Under the pieces are notes generated by a model, which worked only from the letters and a program-made list of their open reading frames with translations, was not told where the DNA came from and did no database searches. The translations under genes were made by a program, and so were the position numbers. From Plantactinospora sp. BC1 (GTDB taxonomy: Bacteria > Actinomycetota > Actinomycetes > Mycobacteriales > Micromonosporaceae): a stretch of 64,000 nucleotides of DNA. The stretch's first letter is position 1; every line of letters starts with the position of its first letter. The stretch spans positions 6,138,001 to 6,202,000 of the forward strand of contig NZ_CP028158.1 in the NCBI RefSeq assembly GCF_003030345.1, read 5' to 3'. This document shows positions 34,623 through 49,346 of the stretch, in pieces.

Positions 34623-36341
34623 TCAGTGCTTCGGGCCCTTGCCCTTCGGCGGCTTGCCCGGGCCCTTGCCCTTCGAGCCGGCGCGTTCCGGCCCGGCGCC
34701 GGAGGACTCCGCACCCTTCGAGCCGGTGTTCTTCGCACCGGCGCCGGGTCCGGGCTGACCGGCTGACCGATCCGGCGGGGGCGGGGTCGCCGGTGCCACC
34801 GCGCCGACCGCCCCGCCGGCCGCCGCACCGCCGGTCTCGCCCGGCACGGTGGAGACCCGGGCCGCACAGGCGGTCTCGCCGAGCCGGAACTCGACGGGCA
34901 GCGGGTTGCTGCCGGCGTGGCTGCCCACCAGCCCGAACCGGGTCGCGCCACCGGCCGGCAGGGTCGTCTCGGGGCCGGACGCGGGCCGGAGCAGCACCTC
35001 CCGGCCCTGCTGTCGGGACTCCGGCGACGGGTGCCGGGTGAGCACCTGCTCGGCCGGGAAGGCGAAGCGCAGCGTCCAGTCCCGGACCGCCGTGACGCCG
35101 AGGTTGGTGACCGTGACCTCGGCCTGGAACGACCGGCCGGTGTCCACGCGCAGCACGTAGTCGACCCGGCACGGTGCGGTGCCGCCCATCGCCAGGTTCG
35201 TCGCCCCGCCGGCCGGTTCCGAGCCGTTGGCGGCGCCCGCCCAGACCGCCCCGCTCACCGCGAGCAGGCCGACCCCGACCGCCGCGACCCGGACCCGGTT
35301 ACCGCGCCGGGCCGACGGCCGGCGCAGCCGGACCGGCAGCGGCAGCGGGTCGGTCGCCGACCGGGGCAGCATCGCGGTGTCGGAGTGCGCCGGCGCGACC
35401 TGCTGGCGCTCGGCCGGCGCCGGTTCGTCCCGCTCGGCCCGCCGGGACGGCGTGGCCGGGGTCGGACCGACGGTCACCGGCAGCACCACCCCGGCCGCCC
35501 GGGCCAGGGTACGGGCCAGCTCGGCGCTCTCCGGCCGCTCCTCCGGCACCTTCACCAGGCAGCGCGCGACGAGTTCCGCCACCTCGGCCGGCAGCCCCGG
35601 TACCGGTGGCATCGGCGCCGGCTCGGCGTAGAGGTGCGCCCGCAGCGTCTGGGTACGGGTCGACGCCCGCCACGGCATCCGGCCGGTCAGCGTCCGGTAG
35701 AGCAGCAGGCCGAGCGCGTACACGTCGGTGGCCGGACAGACCTCGCCCAGGTTGAGCCGCTCCGGAGCCACGTACGCGGGCGTGCCGTAGAGCCCGCCGT
35801 CGCCGTCGCCGTCCCGCTCGCCGACCAGCGCGGAGATTCCGAAGTCGACGACCTTGGCGCCCATCGCGGTGAGCATGACGTTGCCCGGGGTGATGTCGCG
35901 GTGCACCACTCCCCGGGCGTGCGCGGTGGCCAGCGCGGCCGCCACCTGGACGCCGAGCACGACCGCGTCCCACCAGGGCATCGTGCCCTCGCGGTCGAGC
36001 CAGTTCGCCAGCGTCTCGCCGTCGACCAGCTCCATCACCACGTACGGCACGGTCCGGCCGTACCGCACCGACTCGCCGTAGTCGTAGACCCCGGTGATGT
36101 GCGGGTGGCAGAGCCGGGCCGCGGCCCGGGCCTCGGTGCGGAGCCGGTGCCGGAAGGACCGGTCGGTGGCGAGTCTCGGGGCGAGCATCTTCACCGCCAC
36201 CGGTCGGCCCAGCACCTCGTCGTGGCCCCGCCAGACCACCGACATGCCGCCCTCGCCGAGCTCCTCGATCAGCCGGTAGCGGTCACCGACCAGTTCCGTG
36301 CCGTACCGCTGCGACCCGCCCCACCTGCCCCACCCGGTCAT
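34623..36341 (-). CDS. Transmembrane Ser/Thr protein kinase with extracellular CBM2-like domain
   Basis: A 572-residue kinase of the PknB type. Kinase domain about 22-285: glycine loop GEGGMS, K51 (AVKM), HRD at 147-149, DFG at 166-168, APE. The catalytic loop reads HRDITPGN, with Thr151 in place of the usual Lys. A Pro-rich juxtamembrane stretch and one span (about 350-370) follow. The outside part at 390-492 matches carbohydrate-binding module family 2: bounding cysteines C391 and C492, FQAEVTVTNLGVTAVRDWTLRF and TRFGLVGSHAGSNPLPVEFRL. The tail is Gly/Lys/Pro-rich. It could sense cellulose, chitin or cell wall glycans; most PknB-type sensors use PASTA repeats instead. Confidence 0.88.
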   Translation of the reverse strand: MTGWGRWGGSQRYGTELVGDRYRLIEELGEGGMSVVWRGHDEVLGRPVAVKMLAPRLATDRSFRHRLRTEARAAARLCHPHITGVYDYGESVRYGRTVPYVVMELVDGETLANWLDREGTMPWWDAVVLGVQVAAALATAHARGVVHRDITPGNVMLTAMGAKVVDFGISALVGERDGDGDGGLYGTPAYVAPERLNLGEVCPATDVYALGLLLYRTLTGRMPWRASTRTQTLRAHLYAEPAPMPPVPGLPAEVAELVARCLVKVPEERPESAELARTLARAAGVVLPVTVGPTPATPSRRAERDEPAPAERQQVAPAHSDTAMLPRSATDPLPLPVRLRRPSARRGNRVRVAAVGVGLLAVSGAVWAGAANGSEPAGGATNLAMGGTAPCRVDYVLRVDTGRSFQAEVTVTNLGVTAVRDWTLRFAFPAEQVLTRHPSPESRQQGREVLLRPASGPETTLPAGGATRFGLVGSHAGSNPLPVEFRLGETACAARVSTVPGETGGAAAGGAVGAVAPATPPPPDRSAGQPGPGAGAKNTGSKGAESSGAGPERAGSKGKGPGKPPKGKGPKH

Positions 36342-36457: not shown

Positions 36458-38038
36458 TCAGGCGGTGGCGAGGAGCTGGTCGACCGGGGCGTACTCGTCG
36501 GTCAGCACCATCGCGTCGTCGACGAACTCGTCGAGCGCGGGGCCGGAGAGCACGGTGACGGGTTCCTCCGCCGAGGTGATCAGGCGTTCCCGTACCTGCT
36601 GCACCGGCAGCGGCCGGTCGGAGGCGAGGATCACGAAGTTCGCGCCCTGCGAACCGGCCAGCGCGGCCGGCGGTGCGACCAGCGCGATGTGTGGGAACTC
36701 GGCCGCCACGGTGGCGACCTCGGCCCGGATGAAGCGCAGCGGCGGGTGGTCGATCACGTTCTGCGCGTAGATGCCGCCGGGGCGGACCACCCGGCGGACC
36801 TCGGCGGCCATCTCCCGGGTGGCCAGGTGCCAGGGCACCACCAGGTGCCCGAACGCGTCCCCGACCACCAGGTCGGCGCTCTGTCCGGCCCGCTCCCCGA
36901 TCAGCATCCGGGCGTCGCCGACCCGGGCCGACAGCTCCGGGCCGATCCGCACGTCCAGCTCGCGGCGGCCCAGCTCGACCAGCTCGCCGTCGATCTCGTA
37001 GACCTCGTTGCGGGTGCCGGGCCGGGTCGCGGTCAGGTAGCGCGGCATGGTGAAGCCGCCACCCCCGAGGTGTACGGCCTGAAGCGGTGCCCGGGCCGGT
37101 GCCATCACGTCGGCGACCGCCCCGATCCACTTGGTGTACTCGAACTCCAGGTGCCCCGGATCGGCGAGGTCCACATAGGAGTGCCAGGCCGAGTTGAGCA
37201 CCAGCAGCCGGCCGGTGGAGTTCTCCGGGTCCGGCTCGACCGAGGCGCAGTGGTACGCCGTCTCCACGTCGCACGGGGTCGGCGCGACGGCGGTGAGCGA
37301 GGCGCCGGCCAGGCCGAGCACGGCCGCGGCGGCGGTGAGCCGGGACGGCTTCGGCAGCGTGTCACGGAGCTGCCGGCGCAGGTAGCCGGCGAGCACCAGC
37401 CCGGTCACCCCGAGCAGGACCGCCAGGCTGATGATGATCACGGTACTCGGCAGGGCGGCGACCAGCACGAAGCCGGTACCCAGCGTCGCGGTGATCGCGC
37501 CGAGCGTGCCGATGCTGGAGAGCCGCCCGACCACCTGCCCGGTCTGCCGCAGGTCGCCGAGTTGCAGCTTCACCACCAGCGGGGTGATCGAGGCGAGCAG
37601 GGCCGCCGGCAGAAAGATCGCCAACGCGGTGAGCAGCAGGATGCCGACGGCGGCACCGCCGCGCAGCACCTCGCCGGCGTACCGGACGATCGGCAGGGTC
37701 AGCGCGGTGCAGATTCCGGCGAGGATCAGGGCCGGGGCGAGCAGCCGGCGCGGGTCCCGGCGGTCGGCGAGCCACCCGCCGACCCAGGCGCCGTACGCGA
37801 TCGCGGCCAGCGCCACCCCGATCACCGAACTGGTGACCTGGAGGGTGACCCCGACGTACGGGCCGACGAGCCGCAGCGACGCCGTCTCCAGGACGAGTAC
37901 GGCACCGCTGGAGACGAAGACCAGGGTGGCCGCCAGGCCCGTCGGCAGGGCCCGGGCCGGTGATCCGGGTGGCTCGTCGGCGACGGTGGTGGCCGCCACC
38001 TCAGGTGGTGAAGAGTCCATCGCAGCGATGGTACGCAT
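36458..38038 (-). CDS. Membrane protein with spermidine-synthase-like domain
   Basis: A 526-residue protein: about seven membrane spans in the first 270 residues, then a cytoplasmic SAM/aminopropyl-transferase-type domain: VHLGGGGFTMPRYL (ligand-binding), EVYEIDGELVELGRREL, ARMLIGERAGQSADLVVGDAFG. This is the fused MFS/spermidine-synthase family. Typical polyamine-binding acids are only partly kept, so the true reaction is open. Start at ATG 38038; an alternative ATG at 38020 lacks a clear SD. It is downstream of the secreted coiled-coil gene by 18 bp, so the two may be one transcript. Confidence 0.85.
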   Translation of the reverse strand: MRTIAAMDSSPPEVAATTVADEPPGSPARALPTGLAATLVFVSSGAVLVLETASLRLVGPYVGVTLQVTSSVIGVALAAIAYGAWVGGWLADRRDPRRLLAPALILAGICTALTLPIVRYAGEVLRGGAAVGILLLTALAIFLPAALLASITPLVVKLQLGDLRQTGQVVGRLSSIGTLGAITATLGTGFVLVAALPSTVIIISLAVLLGVTGLVLAGYLRRQLRDTLPKPSRLTAAAAVLGLAGASLTAVAPTPCDVETAYHCASVEPDPENSTGRLLVLNSAWHSYVDLADPGHLEFEYTKWIGAVADVMAPARAPLQAVHLGGGGFTMPRYLTATRPGTRNEVYEIDGELVELGRRELDVRIGPELSARVGDARMLIGERAGQSADLVVGDAFGHLVVPWHLATREMAAEVRRVVRPGGIYAQNVIDHPPLRFIRAEVATVAAEFPHIALVAPPAALAGSQGANFVILASDRPLPVQQVRERLITSAEEPVTVLSGPALDEFVDDAMVLTDEYAPVDQLLATA

Positions 38039-38056: not shown

Positions 38057-39100
38057 CTACAACATCGACAGATGAACGTGGTTCGTGTGGTCGGAGGCCG
38101 GATCACCGTTGCCGTTGTACGCCCGCCAGCCGTTGCCGGGCATCCAGATCTGCCTGTACCAGATCACGTAGAGCACGCCGAGCCGGTCGGCGTTCTTCAC
38201 GTAGAAGGCGGCGAGGTTGTTGCCGTAGGTGCGGTCGCCGCCGCTCGCGTCGACGTTCTCGAAGCCGCCGGGCGCGGCGGAGAAGTCGCAGGCGCGGCCC
38301 TTGGGGTGCTCACCGCCGCCGCCGCTGCGGTGGCAGGAGGCGTGCCGCTTGAAGTTGTTCGCCTTGGCCTGGTTGAGCGCGTGCAGGGTGCGCGGCGTGA
38401 TGCACCCGCTGGTGGTCGGGTCCTTGATGCTGCACGACTCCTTGGGCCAGGAGCCGTCGGAGTTGCGCGGGGCGGGCTTCGCCAGCGGCGAGTTGGCGCT
38501 GATCAGCCCGCCGGACTGGCCGCCGCCGACGGCGGCGAGGGCGCGCTCGGCGTCCTTCTTCTTCCGGGCGATGACCTCGACCTGCCGCTGCTGCTCGCGG
38601 ACCTCGGCGTCGATCGCGTTCTTCGCCCTGGTCGCCTGGTCGAGCGCGTCGGCCAGCTCGCGGAGCTTCCGGTCGTCGCGCTGGGCCAGCACTTCGAGCC
38701 CGGCGGCCCGCTCCACGAACGACTGCGGCGAGGCGCTGTTGAGCAGGGCCGAGATCGGGGTGAGCCGGCCCCGGCGGTACGTCTCGGCGGCGATCACCCC
38801 CACCTCCTGGGTGAGGGTGGTGATCCGGGCCTGGACCTGCTTGAGCTGCGTGCCGAGCTGGCTCTGCCGCTTCTTCGAGCTGTTCAGCTTGGCGGTCGCC
38901 TCGATGTGCCCCTTGGAGGCGGACTCCAGGGCGTCCCGGAGCTTCTTGGTGCCGCCCTCGTCGCCGGGCGAGCTGGGTGCGGCGGCCGCCGGGGCGGCGG
39001 CCGGGCCGACCAGGGCCGCGGGGGTGCCGACGAGGAGCGCGGCGGCGACGAGCAGCGCCGCGGATGGACGCCGCAGCCGGGCGATGGCCGTTGTGCGCAC
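38057..39100 (-). CDS. Secreted coiled-coil protein with a peptidase-like C-terminal domain
   Basis: A 347-residue exported protein starting at GTG 39100 with a signal peptide that ends in an alanine run (AAAPAAAA). About 45-215 is a long coiled coil with a break (RRGRLTPISALLNSASPQSF), the pattern of EnvC/RipA-type regulators. The C-terminal domain, 235-347, has HASCHRSGGGGEHPKGRACDF and a closing DHTNHVHLS, which resemble the zinc-binding His/Asp set of D-Ala-D-Ala carboxypeptidases (ARB_07466-like). Probably acts on peptidoglycan. The leader ahead of it is long and structured. Upstream frames up to 39358 are non-coding leader. Confidence 0.8.
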   Translation of the reverse strand: MRTTAIARLRRPSAALLVAAALLVGTPAALVGPAAAPAAAAPSSPGDEGGTKKLRDALESASKGHIEATAKLNSSKKRQSQLGTQLKQVQARITTLTQEVGVIAAETYRRGRLTPISALLNSASPQSFVERAAGLEVLAQRDDRKLRELADALDQATRAKNAIDAEVREQQRQVEVIARKKKDAERALAAVGGGQSGGLISANSPLAKPAPRNSDGSWPKESCSIKDPTTSGCITPRTLHALNQAKANNFKRHASCHRSGGGGEHPKGRACDFSAAPGGFENVDASGGDRTYGNNLAAFYVKNADRLGVLYVIWYRQIWMPGNGWRAYNGNGDPASDHTNHVHLSML

Positions 39101-39373
39101 GAAAGCCGTTCCTTTCGTAGGCCGCCGACCCCGAGGGGTCCACACTGACCAGTGAACCGTTCTCGACCTGCCCGTGTGCTCGGACGGACCGCACGGTCGG
39201 ACGCGGTCCGTGAGCGCCGCTCGGCTCAGGTGGGGAACGGTTCGTTCGGCGGCGGCCACCGCCGGCACCCTCGACGGTGCCACCTGGCGGAGACCGCCGG
39301 TCAGCCTACCGGAAGCCGGCCGCGCTGTCGGCCCACGGACGAGGCACCGCAATACCATAGAAAACGGATTATA
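39101..39373 (-). promoter_or_regulatory. Promoter and structured 5' leader of the coiled-coil gene
   Basis: The 39101-39424 gap carries no gene. On the minus strand a perfect TATAAT lies at 39373-39368, so a transcript beginning near 39361 has a leader of about 260 nt. It can form hairpins at 39184-39211 (9-bp stem), 39264-39281 (6 bp), 39127-39140 (GACCCC/GGGGTC) and a long-range AGGTGG/CCACCT pair (39228-39233 with 39280-39285). I did not find the conserved core of the c-di-AMP (ydaO) riboswitch, which often precedes such genes. RBS AAAGGAAC is near 39107-39114. Confidence 0.45.
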
Positions 39374-39424: not shown

Positions 39425-40246
39425 TCAGGATTCGGCCAGCAGGGCGTGCTGCACGGTGTCCCAGATCGACTCGTTGGCGGCCACCAGCAGCCCGGTCCGC
39501 CCGTCGGCCGGGTCGTACGGGCTGCCGTCGAGCCGCCGTACCACCCCGCCGGCCGCCTCGACCAGCAGCGCTCCCGGGGCGTGGTCCCAGGGCAGCGTCC
39601 GCCAGAAGATCGCGAACTGCTGCCGATTGTCCACAATATCCGTATATTCCTGACCAGCACAGTGTTGTCCATGCAGCACCGCACCGATCCGGTCCGCCCC
39701 GGCGGCCACCCGGCCCTGGAGTTCCACCGGCAGGAACCGGGTCGCCACCACACCGCGCAACGACCTGGCCGGCAGCGGCTCGGCGGTGGTCCGCACCGGT
39801 TCCCCGTCCCGGTACGCCCCGTCCCCGGCCCGGGCCACCAGCAGGCGGTCCGCCATCGGGTCGAGGATCCAGGCCGCCTCGGTACGCCCGGCCCGCCGCC
39901 GCGCCACCATCACCGCGAACGGCTCCCGCCCGGCCGCGAAGTTGGCCGTACCGTCCAGGGGATCGACCAGCCACACCTCGGCCGGCCCGCTCAGCCGCTC
40001 CAACACCGCCGGATCGGCCGCCACCCCCTCCTCGCCGACCACCTCGGAGTCCGGCCGGAGCCGGCGCAGCTCGGCGCCGATGATCTCCTCGGCCCGGCGG
40101 TCGGCGACCGTCACGACCTCGCCGGGAGCCTTCTCCGAGACGTCGGCGTCGGCCAGGTGCCGGAACATCGGCAGGATGGCGTCGGCGGCGGCCCGCCGGA
40201 GCAGCGCACCGACCTCCTCCACCAGCCGCGAATCGGGGTCAGCCAC
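39425..40246 (-). CDS. Inositol monophosphatase family protein
   Basis: A 273-residue phosphatase with the metal sites of the family: VVGEEG (Glu-Glu), DPLDGTANF at about 94-102 and [15 protein letters not shown] near 215-230. It dephosphorylates inositol phosphate, histidinol phosphate or a related sugar phosphate. The GTG start at 40246 overlaps the response-regulator stop by 8 bp. One stretch ([15 protein letters not shown]) is coded by locally AT-rich DNA at 39630-39660. Last gene of the signalling operon. Confidence 0.9.
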
Positions 40247-40691
40247 GCGGCGGAAGCTTCACGACGCTGACGAAGAACTCGTCGATCTGCCGCACCACCG
40301 AGATGAACCGCTCGAAGTCGACCGGCTTCGTCACGTACGCGTTCGCGTGCAGTTGGTAGCTGCGCAGGATGTCCTCGTCCGCCTGCGAGGTGGTCAGCAC
40401 CACCACCGGGATCCGGCAGAGCTGCTCGTCCCGCTTGATCTCGGCCAGCACCTCCCGGCCGTCCCGCCGCGGCAGGTTCAGGTCGAGCAGGATCAGGTCC
40501 GGGGGGACGGCGTCGGCGTACTCGCCCTCCTGACGCAGGTAGGCCAGCGCCGCCGCGCCGTCGGAGACCACGGTCAGCCGATTGCGCAGCTTGTGCTCGT
40601 CAAAAGCCTCCTGCGTCATCAGCACGTCGCCCGGGTCGTCCTCGACCAGCAGCACCTCGATCGGGCTCCTGCCGTCCGCCGGTGCCGTCAT
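40239..40691 (-). CDS. Single-domain response regulator (Rcp1 type)
   Basis: A 150-residue receiver domain without an output domain. Acidic pocket VEDDPGD at 16-22, phospho-acceptor D70 (LILLDLNLP), Thr in LTTSQ and Lys in TKPVD. The longer loop after the first helix (KLRNRLTVV) is typical of Rcp1-type partners of phytochrome-like kinases. Its kinase is most likely the neighbouring CHASE3 protein. Confidence 0.93.
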
Positions 40692-40720
40692 CGGCCCCTC
40701 CTCGTCGATCCGCTCATCCG

Positions 40721-42424
40721 TCAGACAGTCTGCTTCATGTCGCCGGCCGGCCGGGCCGACTCACCCGCCGGTGTGGCGTCGGCCTCGCTCTCGGCCGGCG
40801 CCTCGGCCTCCGGCGCCGACGGGGTCGGCTCCGCCCCGTCCACGCCCGGGGCCTCGGACGGCTCGACCGACTCCCGCAGCTCCGGTGGCACCGGAAGGGT
40901 GAACCGGATCATCGTGCCCTCGGTGACCGCCTCGGGATCGACCCAGACCCGGCCACCGTGGTACTCGACGATCTTCTTCACGATGGCCAGCCCGATCCCG
41001 GTGCCCGGATAGGCGTCCTTCGCGTGCAGCCGCTGGAAGATCACGAATATCTTGTCGGCGAACTCGGGCTCGATGCCGATCCCGTTGTCCTGACAACTGA
41101 TCTCCCACTCGTCGCCCAGCCGCCGGGCCGAGACGTGCACCTTCGGCGCGACGTCCGGGCGGCGGAACTTGAGCGAGTTGCCGACCAGGTTCGCCAGCAG
41201 GTTGGTCAGCAGGGTCTCCTCGCCCCGGATGACCGGCAGGTCCGACCAGGTGAGCTCGCCGCCGACGTACTGCCGGGTCGGCTCGGTCTGGCCGGCGACC
41301 TCGCTCATCACCGCGTTCAGGTCGACCTCGGTGAACCCGCTGGTGAGCCGGCCGATCCGGGAGAACGCCAACAGGTCGTTGATCAGCCGCTGCATCCGCT
41401 GCGCCCCGTCCACCGCGAACGCGATGTACTGGTCGGCGCGCTCGTCGAGCTTGCCCGCGTACCGGCGTTGCAGCAGCTGGCAGAAGCTGGCCACCTTGCG
41501 CAGCGGCTCCTGGAGGTCGTGCGAGGCGACGTAGGCGAACTGCTCCAGGTCACGGTTGGACCGGACCAGCTCCTCGGCCTGCCGCTCCAGTTGGCTGTTG
41601 ACCCACTCGATCCGTTCCCGCGCCTGCCGTACCTCGTCCAGGTCGGCGGCGATCCGGCGGCGCATCCCGTCGATGTCGCCGGCCAACGCGGCCAGCTCCG
41701 GCGGACCGACCTGCTCGATCTCCCGCTGGTACGCCCCGCCGGCCACCTCCCGCACCTGGCCCGCCAGCGTGGTGACCGGCCCGATGACCAGCCGGTTCAG
41801 CGAGGTCATCAGCGCGAGCCCGGCCAGCACCACCACGATCGCGGCCAGGATCAGCAGCAGCACCAGGGTGTTGCCGGTCGCCCGGGCGTTGCGCGCGACG
41901 CTGTTGCGCAGCTCCAGGATCGACCCCTGCAACGCCTCCACCTCGCCGCGCAGCTCGGTGAAGCGGGCCCCGGTCTGGGCGGTCAGATGCGCCTGTGCGG
42001 CCTCCGGCCCGCTCCGCACGGTCAGCTCGATCGCCGGCTCGGCCACCGCCTCCCGCCACTGCTGGGCGTGGTCCCGCACCGTGTGCAGCTCGCGGCGGAT
42101 CTCCGGCTGGTCGGTCAGCAGCGCGTCCATCGAGGCGATCAGCGCCGTCTCCCGCTTCAGCCCCTCCCGGTACGGCGCCAGGTCGGCGTCGTTCGCGGTG
42201 ACCGCGTAGCCGCGTACCCCGGTCTGCTGGTCGACCAAGGCGCTGAGCAGCGCCTGACCGTCGGTGCGCAGCGGACCGGTCTTGGTGAGCAGGGTGTCCA
42301 GGTGTTGCCGGTTGCTGGTGGCGACGACCGCCGCGCTGACCGCCAGCATGCCGAGCACCACACCGACGACCACGCACAGTACGGCGACCCGACGCCGCAG
42401 CGTCCAGCGAACCCGTGCCTTCAC
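40721..42424 (-). CDS. CHASE3 sensor histidine kinase
   Basis: A 567-residue kinase: membrane span 11-35, CHASE3 sensory domain about 40-175, second span 184-207, HAMP, coiled coil, HisKA with H302 in SHDLQEPL, HATPase ([42 protein letters not shown]) and an acidic C-terminal tail of about 65 residues. SHDLQEPL is the phytochrome-related HisKA variety that pairs with Rcp1-like regulators. GTG start overlaps the phosphatase stop by 4 bp. Confidence 0.94.
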
Positions 42425-43665
42425 CGCCCCTCCCCCCGGCAGACCAGCAGCATCGCCACGTCGTCGGAGAGCGGGCCGCCGTTGTGCTCCTCGGCCCGCT
42501 CCACCAGCCAGCCGGGCAGCTCCGGCAGGCCCACCCCACGGGCCCGCGGATCAGCCACCAGCCCGCTCAGTCCGGGTACGTCCAACCGCTCGTCGCCGTC
42601 GCCGATCCGGCCCTCGACGAGCCCGTCCGTGTACATCAACAATGACCAGTCCTCGGTGTCGAAACGCAACTCGTGGGCGACCGGCGGCCGGGGCCGTACG
42701 CCGAGCAGCAGCCCGTGCGGGGCCGGTACCGGCGCCACCCGGCCCCCGGCGAGCAGCAGCGGCGGCGGATGCCCGGCGAGCCGTACGGTGGCCCGGTTGC
42801 CGGCCAGGTCCAGCCGGACGGCGGCGACGGTGGCGAAGATCTCCCGCCTCGACCGCTCGCTCATCAGCACCTGCTCCAGCGCCGGCAGCACCTGCTCGTC
42901 GGGCACCCCGGCGAGCACCAGGGCCCGCCAGGCGACCCGCAGCTCGACACCGAGCGCCGCCTCGTCGACACCGTGCCCGCAGACGTCCCCGACGATCAGG
43001 TCGATCCGGTCCGGGGAGGTCTGCACCACGTCGTAGAAGTCGCCGCCGATCAGGGCCTCGTGCCGGCCGGGGCGGTAGAAGGGGTGCACCTGCACCAGGT
43101 CGGTGTCGATCAGGGGCTGGGGCAGCAGGCCGCGCTCCAACCGGGCGGACTCGGCCTGGCGCAGCTCCACCTCGCGCAGCCGGCGGGTGTTCTCGTCGGC
43201 CCGCTTGCGCTCCACCGCGTAGCGCAGCGCCCGGGCCAGCAGCACCCCGTCGACCTGGCCCTTGACCAGGTAGTCCTGGGCGCCCTCGGCGACCGCACCG
43301 ATGCCGAGGTGCTCGTCGGAACGGCCGGTGAGCACGCAGACGGCGGCGTTGCTGGACATCCCGAGCACCTGGCGGAGCCCGTCCAGGCCCTGCGCGTCCG
43401 GCAGGCCGAGGTCGAGCAGTACGCAGTCGACGCCGGAGATCTTGGACCGGGCACCGTTCAGGCTGTTCGCGACGAGCAGGTCGATCCCCTCGCCGGTCTC
43501 GGCGAGCAGCTCGCCGACCAGGAAGGCGTCGGCGTCGTCGTCCTCGATCAGCAGCACCCGCAGCCGCTCCCGGGGCGGCAGTTTGGCGTGCCGCCCGAGC
43601 CCGCCGTGCGGGTACGACGGCGCGGGTACGACGGACGACCCGGTCACCGGGCCGCCCCCACCCAT
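42421..43665 (-). CDS. Receiver-SpoIIE (PP2C) phosphatase
   Basis: A 414-residue protein: receiver domain about 35-155 with D85 (LLDLGLPD), a short coiled coil (ERKRADENTRRLREVELRQAE, about 160-180), then a SpoIIE/RsbU-type phosphatase with metal acids in GGDFYDVV, VGDVCGHG and SDDVAML. Phosphatases of this kind dephosphorylate anti-sigma-factor antagonists. ATG 43665 chosen; a GTG six codons later is also possible. First gene of the operon; its target partner is not in the window. Confidence 0.92.
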   Translation of the reverse strand: MGGGGPVTGSSVVPAPSYPHGGLGRHAKLPPRERLRVLLIEDDDADAFLVGELLAETGEGIDLLVANSLNGARSKISGVDCVLLDLGLPDAQGLDGLRQVLGMSSNAAVCVLTGRSDEHLGIGAVAEGAQDYLVKGQVDGVLLARALRYAVERKRADENTRRLREVELRQAESARLERGLLPQPLIDTDLVQVHPFYRPGRHEALIGGDFYDVVQTSPDRIDLIVGDVCGHGVDEAALGVELRVAWRALVLAGVPDEQVLPALEQVLMSERSRREIFATVAAVRLDLAGNRATVRLAGHPPPLLLAGGRVAPVPAPHGLLLGVRPRPPVAHELRFDTEDWSLLMYTDGLVEGRIGDGDERLDVPGLSGLVADPRARGVGLPELPGWLVERAEEHNGGPLSDDVAMLLVCRGEGR

Positions 43666-43837
43666 CCGGTCACGACGCCTCCTCGCTCCGTTCCTCGCCG
43701 CCCCGACCGTCCCGCTCCGGCACGGGGTCCTGCGTGCCCCGTGCGGTCGTGCCCGGCCCACGCCGACGATCCGCGCCGATCCTGTACCACCCAACGCTGC
43801 CACACAACACAGGTAGCGCCGACACGGTGCCCGGACG

Positions 43838-49332: not shown

Positions 49333-49346
49333 TGGAAGCGCTCCCA
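49333..49346 (-). promoter_or_regulatory. CebR-like operator upstream of the GH9 gene
   Basis: TGGAAGCGCTCCCA differs at one base from the palindrome TGGGAGCGCTCCCA, the known binding site of the cellobiose-responsive LacI repressor CebR in Streptomyces. It sits upstream of the cellulase start, in the spot expected for a repressor near the promoter. cebR is not in the window. Confidence 0.75.

Follow-up and report, generated by a model that had tools for sequence, protein, structure and literature searches.

A receptor-type Ser/Thr kinase family of Micromonosporaceae with a CBM2-like ectodomain that lacks the cellulose-binding platform

Introduction

What might a membrane kinase perceive when the domain that it exposes is labelled automatically as a cellulose binding domain? 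This question is raised by one gene of Plantactinospora (genome of 8.33 Mb, single contig), which lies in a stretch of 64,000 nucleotides, here called the window, and encodes a protein kinase joined to an outside domain of the CBM2 type. A preliminary description of the locus had proposed that this domain would let the kinase sense cellulose, chitin or its own wall glycan, and had pointed to a GH9 cellulase with a CebR-type operator about 11 kb away as part of a possible polymer-sensing path. Here, we compare the protein with its relatives, with the remaining CBM2 domains of its genome and with known receptor systems, and we weigh the readings of its ectodomain.

Results

A single-pass receptor kinase

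By domain and motifs, the window gene is a Hanks-type Ser/Thr kinase for which protein phosphorylation is predicted (Table 1). A Pkinase domain is present together with the ATP-binding Lys, the alphaC Glu, HRD and DFG, and K51, E70 (alphaC), R148-D149 (HRD) and F167-G168 (DFG) are identical in 66 of 66 sequences, that is, the window protein and 65 named relatives. The open frame, the intact motifs and a dN/dS below 1 rule out a pseudogene. The catalytic loop follows the pattern HRDxTxxN, with Thr where Lys is usual; this Thr is common to most relatives read, with Lys, Ser or His in a few, and a motif search found Lys at this position in most other kinases of the genome. Because an Arg-rich stretch precedes the membrane span, the kinase should lie inside and the CBM2-like domain outside, and the bounding cysteines noted at first, C391 and C492, are the only ones C-terminal to the span. 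The genome contains 25 Pkinase matches in 24 frames and 42 CBM_2 matches, and the window gene alone appears in both lists (coordinates compared by eye). The architecture given in the preliminary description, a PknB-type kinase, one span and an outside CBM2-type domain, is confirmed by sequence, predicted fold and conservation.

Table 1. Features of the kinase gene and its surroundings, in coordinates of the window
Feature	Position	Strand	Basis
Ser/Thr receptor kinase with CBM2-like ectodomain, 572 aa	34623..36341	-	whole ORF
Hanks-type kinase domain, residues 22-275	35517..36278	-	Pfam 2.2e-41 and motifs
Catalytic loop HRDITPGN, residues 147-154	35880-35903	-	
Transmembrane helix, residues ~350-368; N-terminal (inside) flank Arg-rich	35238..35294	-	hydropathy
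CBM2-like ectodomain, residues 391-492; Cys at both ends, core W422	34866..35171	-	
Asp-Thr-Gly, residues 400-402, replacing the Cex W17 loop	35136..35144	-	alignment
Asn-Pro-Leu-Pro, residues 479-482	34896..34907	-	alignment
C-terminal tail, outside, residues 503-572, Gly/Pro/Lys-rich	34626..34835	-	
Fused MFS/spermidine synthase-like (SpeE) protein, same strand, 116 bases before kinase start	36458..38038	-	NF037959, 293.8 bits, cut-off 40
Coiled-coil protein (weak RipC match), C-terminal His/Asp domain; putative secreted wall hydrolase	38057..39358	-	
Upstream block: inositol-monophosphatase family protein, single-domain response regulator, CHASE3 histidine kinase	39425..42424	-	
SpoIIE-type phosphatase with receiver domain; adjoins the CHASE3 histidine kinase and response regulator on their upstream side	42421-43803		
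CebR-like palindrome, one mismatch, in 5' part of listed GH9 frame	49333-49346		match to consensus

The CBM2 fold is retained and the cellulose platform is gone

Pfam CBM_2 (PF00553) matches residues 391-492 over profile positions 1-101 with 53.6 bits against a gathering cut-off of 24 (E 3.1e-14), and the predicted ectodomain fold is a CBM2-type beta-sandwich with a Cys at each end, so that the profile and the structure model both agree with the earlier assignment. In the CBM2a of Cex (C. fimi; 1exg, 6qfs), W17, W54 and W72 are described as a flat strip that contacts cellulose, and one natural CBM2 as carrying Asp at the third platform place (PMC5935602). The window ectodomain, unlike that of Cex, has no such strip, is about 20% charged and is tethered to a membrane kinase. 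Cex and CBM2 domains from the Plantactinospora genome itself were aligned with 62 distinct ectodomains, drawn from 70 loci (L061-L130); the 62 include those of L125 and L129, whose kinase region is damaged or truncated. Aromatic residues at the Cex W17, W54 and W72 positions occur in none of the 62 related ectodomains in this alignment, and in the window domain there are none either; position 17 is Ser or Thr in 58 of the 62.

The other CBM2 domains of the genome, each taken by its CBM2 match without individual annotation as an enzyme, look different. In a first set, 25 of 30, Trp stands at 17 and Trp or Tyr at 54 in all 25, and position 72 is Trp or Tyr in 20 and His in the remaining five. 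In the completed control, for which 40 of 41 matches were aligned (the last, weak and with a stop inside, yielded no alignment), an aromatic residue stands at 17 in 37, at 54 in 38 and at 72 in 30, with His at 72 in seven, and at least two of the three platform positions are kept in 38 of 40. Secretion of these other proteins is expected; a hydropathy scan of the 40 control frames, several of them cut by the locus edge, marked spans near the start in most uncut frames, a scan in which signal peptide and anchor are indistinguishable. Counted without alignment, each of the 66 named relatives and 50 of the 62 domains in the wider set have a single Trp, as against three to six in the 25 other domains, and the median share of charged residues is 20% in the kinase set versus 5% in other CBM2 domains. 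Trp is found at Cex position 58, four past W54, in 11 of the 62 relatives, none of them in the genera g1 and g4, and in L064, from Plantactinospora, a Trp adjoins position 17.

Trp422, singled out in the preliminary description as a conserved residue of the domain, is indeed present in 62 of 62 kinase-set domains and in 25 of 25 others, but it corresponds to the core Trp of Cex (W38) and is not a binding residue. By sequence family and fold, the ectodomain is a CBM2 in which the surface that grips cellulose is missing. With no aromatic residue at any platform position, either in the window domain or in the 62 related ectodomains, the proposal that the kinase senses cellulose or chitin is not supported at the sequence level.

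The ectodomain is under purifying selection

Loss of the platform does not reflect decay, as the ectodomain is conserved and under purifying selection. Among 673 Micromonospora pairs, the median dN/dS is 0.15 for the kinase domain, 0.36 for the CBM2-like domain and 0.61 for the tail; in the comparison with P. endophytica, whose locus (L161) shares 85% identity with the ectodomain query, the CBM2-like domain has a dN of 0.062 and a dS of 0.264. An alignment of 22 diverse ectodomains has 13 invariant columns, and most of these, being common to ordinary CBM2s, may be structural. Several residues are characteristic of the kinase set, being conserved there and seldom seen in other CBM2 domains: an Asp, a Gly, a Tyr, one Pro and two Leu. 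The Asp of the former W17 loop is present in 62 of 62 kinase-set ectodomains versus 12% of the 25 other domains, the Gly after it in 97% versus 20% and the Tyr in 94% versus 20%, and one conserved Pro and one conserved Leu occur in none of the 25. Within Asn-Pro-Leu-Pro, the Leu is found in 92% of the kinase set and in 0 of 25 others, whereas the Asn and the last Pro, found in all 62, are also common in the others (60% and 100%). The tail that follows is poorly conserved in sequence among relatives; of the 66 named relatives, 61 have a net positive tail (median +11) and five do not, and in the window the charge is only +6 (10 K/R and 4 D/E in residues 502-572).

Distribution of the kinase family

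The kinase protein is present in five of seven genomes of the genus, and an ectodomain match (E <= 1e-20) was found in 162 of 300 sampled Micromonosporaceae genomes, from 20 of 44 genera. The kinase motif lies in the same frame in 65 of the 70 loci read (L061-L130); three others (L105, L107 and L108) encode a kinase with another catalytic-loop motif, and two look broken, with the CBM2-like domain present and the kinase part outside the frame (L125, 8408-9877) or cut short (L129, 9201-10337). From 303 loci, 80 named ones were kept, 66 of them with the kinase motif; the rest include a kinase with another loop motif (L227, at the location of L108) and a protein that by eye is a GH3-like enzyme whose CBM2 has retained its Trp (L228, the only one read of the 13 others).

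Beyond the Micromonosporaceae, no member was found in samples of 394 genomes of the class and 346 of the phylum. The class search, made with the ectodomain profile and about 11 candidates scored per genome, returned 30 loci, of which three have the kinase motif in frame, all of them Micromonosporaceae, and the other 27 are without further annotation. In the phylum search, made with the whole protein, three candidates scored per genome and a cut-off of 1e-60, the ectodomain was reached only by matches in two Micromonosporaceae. Viral contigs gave 26 pattern matches and no relative of the kinase. No description of a CBM2 receptor kinase was found in the literature searched, subscription papers and supplements lying outside its scope, and the main texts of two surveys of prokaryotic kinase architecture (PMC2877116, PMC1262709) hold no match to cellulose, carbohydrate or CBM.

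Gene neighbourhood

Synteny was counted over loci with a kinase match of at least 250 bits (105 of 120, 101 distinct); L127, a kinase by motif, falls under this cut and outside the count. With some contigs ending early, the 101 distinct loci include the SpeE-like protein in 96, the RipC-like protein in 96, the inositol monophosphatase and the response regulator in 91 each and the histidine kinase in 89, and block order, side and strand are as expected in all counted loci but L124. The SpeE-like gene is absent from five (L092, L093 and L106-L108). TrkA and TrkH, named by Pfam as a potassium-uptake pair from the G003 copy, occur in 87 each and lie convergent downstream of the kinase in 86, and livK, which in the window is separated from the kinase by 109 bases, occurs in 55. 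In Plantactinospora, four kinase-bearing loci (L109, L110, L130 and L162) have no TrkH/TrkA pair, and in G003 and G005 such a pair stands in the place of the kinase, with no kinase found (L273, 5572-7594; L274, 11664-13644). The SpoIIE-type phosphatase is retained in the block of G003 and G012. Much of the upstream block is also present where the kinase is absent, and its genes may be passengers relative to the kinase.

The RipC-like neighbour is a putative wall hydrolase, a role suggested by weak matches. Its coiled coil matches the RipC model NF038345 with 29 bits against a cut-off of 425 and the NlpC/P60 protein of PDB 8idc, which we take to be RipC, with an E of 0.0065. Its C-terminal part carries HxxxxxxD and HxxHxH motifs and matches PDB 9flh (E 6.6e-5); Pfam gave no enzyme family, and the pLDDT of the predicted C-terminus is 45. 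The true start of this protein is probably inside the listed frame.

The linkage to a GH9 cellulase

The GH9 gene to which the preliminary description had tied a polymer-sensing path is in place: its frame, one of three GH9 matches in the genome, begins 10.6 kb from the kinase start, and the CebR-like palindrome lies presumably upstream of the true GH9 start. The linkage itself is weak, and the GH9 gene is part of a wider block that two genomes without the kinase retain. Among 61 genomes searched for GH9, 23 have a kinase match, and comparison of positions by eye placed a GH9 within 16 kb of the kinase in eight (G000, G004, G007, G014, G026, G039, G062 and G064) and, on long contigs, not within 16 kb in six (G009, G016, G041, G042, G050 and G057); the other nine, in many contigs, fall outside this judgement, the position of the kinase not being given for three. 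In five many-contig genomes (G024, G025, G030, G034 and G044) the kinase contig carries no GH9 match, and G061 has no GH9 match at all. The two g4 genomes in the comparison (G009 and G050) have no GH9 close to the kinase, and in G003 and G012, where the block lacks the kinase, GH9 is still at its usual position. Since the linkage recurs in several genera and GH9 also stays in place without the kinase, it is real in these genera and looks like block synteny, not a shared pathway.

Other membrane proteins with a platform-less CBM2-like domain

Apart from the window domain, just two aligned CBM2 matches of the genome have none of the three aromatics; these (L290 and L291) are the two control domains that fall short of two platform positions. 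L290 (2427-3587; own genome, 925 kb) combines a cytoplasmic AHSA1 domain, a transmembrane helix, a Pro-rich linker and a CBM2-like domain (24.1 bits), and L291 (2712-3593; own genome, 3241 kb) one or more spans, a Pro-rich linker and a CBM2-like domain (24.5 bits); both scores are just above the CBM_2 cut-off of 24, and for L291 the scan marks two spans. Relatives of L290 occur in 15 and those of L291 in 19 of 61 family genomes, in overlapping lists. Among 32 distinct frames of the two types, at least one span is predicted in 31 and more than one in six; aligned loosely with Cex, with a gap at position 17 in most, they have an aromatic residue at 54 or 72 in none and Tyr at 17 in one, and each contains one to three Trp.

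Discussion

The reading that we favour, although tentatively, is that the protein is a wall-proximal receptor Ser/Thr kinase of the Micromonosporaceae whose CBM2-derived ectodomain has been remodelled for a ligand other than cellulose. The ectodomain would derive from a secreted-type CBM2, would have lost the flat aromatic strip and gained charged and loop residues, and would now have as its ligand either a peptide or protein or, through a different face, a polymer of the wall. The tail, mostly basic and rich in Gly, Pro and Lys, may hold the ectodomain in the anionic wall; the gene neighbourhood and the tail charge are the grounds for placing the signal at the wall. Ligand or wall strain might then alter how the kinase clusters and autophosphorylates, and thereby the phosphorylation of wall-growth targets, much as in PASTA kinases or the malectin-like receptor kinases of plants, to neither of which the protein belongs.

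The comparison with PASTA kinases (PknB, PrkC and StkP) extends to the order of kinase domain, juxtamembrane segment, single transmembrane helix and outside C-terminal part; however, the window kinase scores 266.6 bits with the PASTA kinase model NF033483 against a cut-off of 450, and Pfam shows no PASTA domain. The plant CrRLK1L proteins (ANXUR1/2 and THESEUS1) are likewise receptor kinases with a CBM-like outside fold that lacks the carbohydrate surface; the ANXUR ectodomains are described as having a CBM-like fold in which this surface is not conserved and sugar binding was undetected (PMC6038381). Those receptors are of plant and separate origin and carry tandem malectin domains, whereas the window protein has one CBM2-like domain and no malectin match in Pfam. 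We regard the parallel as close in logic, a resemblance of kind and not of descent. A further use of the CBM2 fold is described for the copper-binding CBM2 of cellulose-active LPMOs, which, unlike the window domain, sits on an enzyme and keeps its cellulose-binding residues on another face in addition to an MMH copper site (PMC12703677); by eye, an MMH motif was not seen in the window domain.

Three alternatives to a remodelled, non-cellulose receptor have to be weighed. That the ectodomain directly binds the own wall of the cell (peptidoglycan glycan, stem peptide or an anionic polymer) by a face other than the strip, in the manner of PASTA domains, seems to us fairly unlikely. The wall glycan named in the preliminary description is a conceivable ligand because other faces of a beta-sandwich can bind, and the mostly basic tails, the putative wall-hydrolase neighbour and the conserved loop residues are consistent with it, as is PknB, whose outside domain is described as binding muropeptides and as required for localisation (PMC3145798). 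Against it stand the poor conservation of the tail sequence and the fact that Pfam lists no peptidoglycan-binding domain in the window protein. We consider it unlikely that the ectodomain is a ligand-free spacer or dimerisation module, which would keep the kinase some way off the membrane or paired and read no signal: the lost CBM2 ligand face and a purifying selection weaker than that on the kinase (0.36 versus 0.15) would suit such a module, but the 13 invariant columns and a loop Asp that is rare in other CBM2 domains argue against it. That the ectodomain binds environmental cellulose or chitin and the kinase turns on degradation genes such as the nearby GH9 is very unlikely. The family and fold match, the 42 CBM2 and three GH9 matches in the genome and the GH9 with its CebR-like site speak for it, and the clostridial RsgI factors, described as sensing polysaccharide through outside CBMs, with the CBM3 of RsgI2 recognising cellulose (PMC12203970), keep the idea reasonable in kind, but the three binding Trp positions are lost throughout a charge-rich domain and the GH9 gene and the kinase occur without each other. 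The RsgI anti-sigma factors (C. thermocellum) resemble the window protein as single-pass sensors with an outside CBM-type domain, and differ from it in a cytoplasmic part that is an anti-sigma domain instead of a kinase.

The remodelled receptor that we favour may belong to a broader pattern. It is possible, although we hold it to be somewhat doubtful, that the Micromonosporaceae have made the CBM2 fold a general membrane-tethered receptor module, shared by the kinase, the AHSA1-type proteins and at least one further family, that no longer binds cellulose and monitors the state of the cell wall by way of wall or protein ligands, as a bacterial counterpart of the malectin-like wall-integrity kinases of plants. 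Loss of the sugar surface in carbohydrate modules turned receptor ectodomains is already known from plants, and the kinase ectodomain offers a small, expressible bacterial case for a direct search for the new ligand. The receptor-kinase family is common in the Micromonosporaceae and without a description in the literature searched, and its automatic label would mislead, as family and fold say CBM2 and the binding residues disagree. Within this one genome, the platform is missing where a CBM2-like domain follows a kinase, an AHSA1 domain or only a membrane span and is largely kept in the other CBM2 domains; if this contrast holds elsewhere, it could guide the re-annotation of CBM2-bearing signalling proteins.
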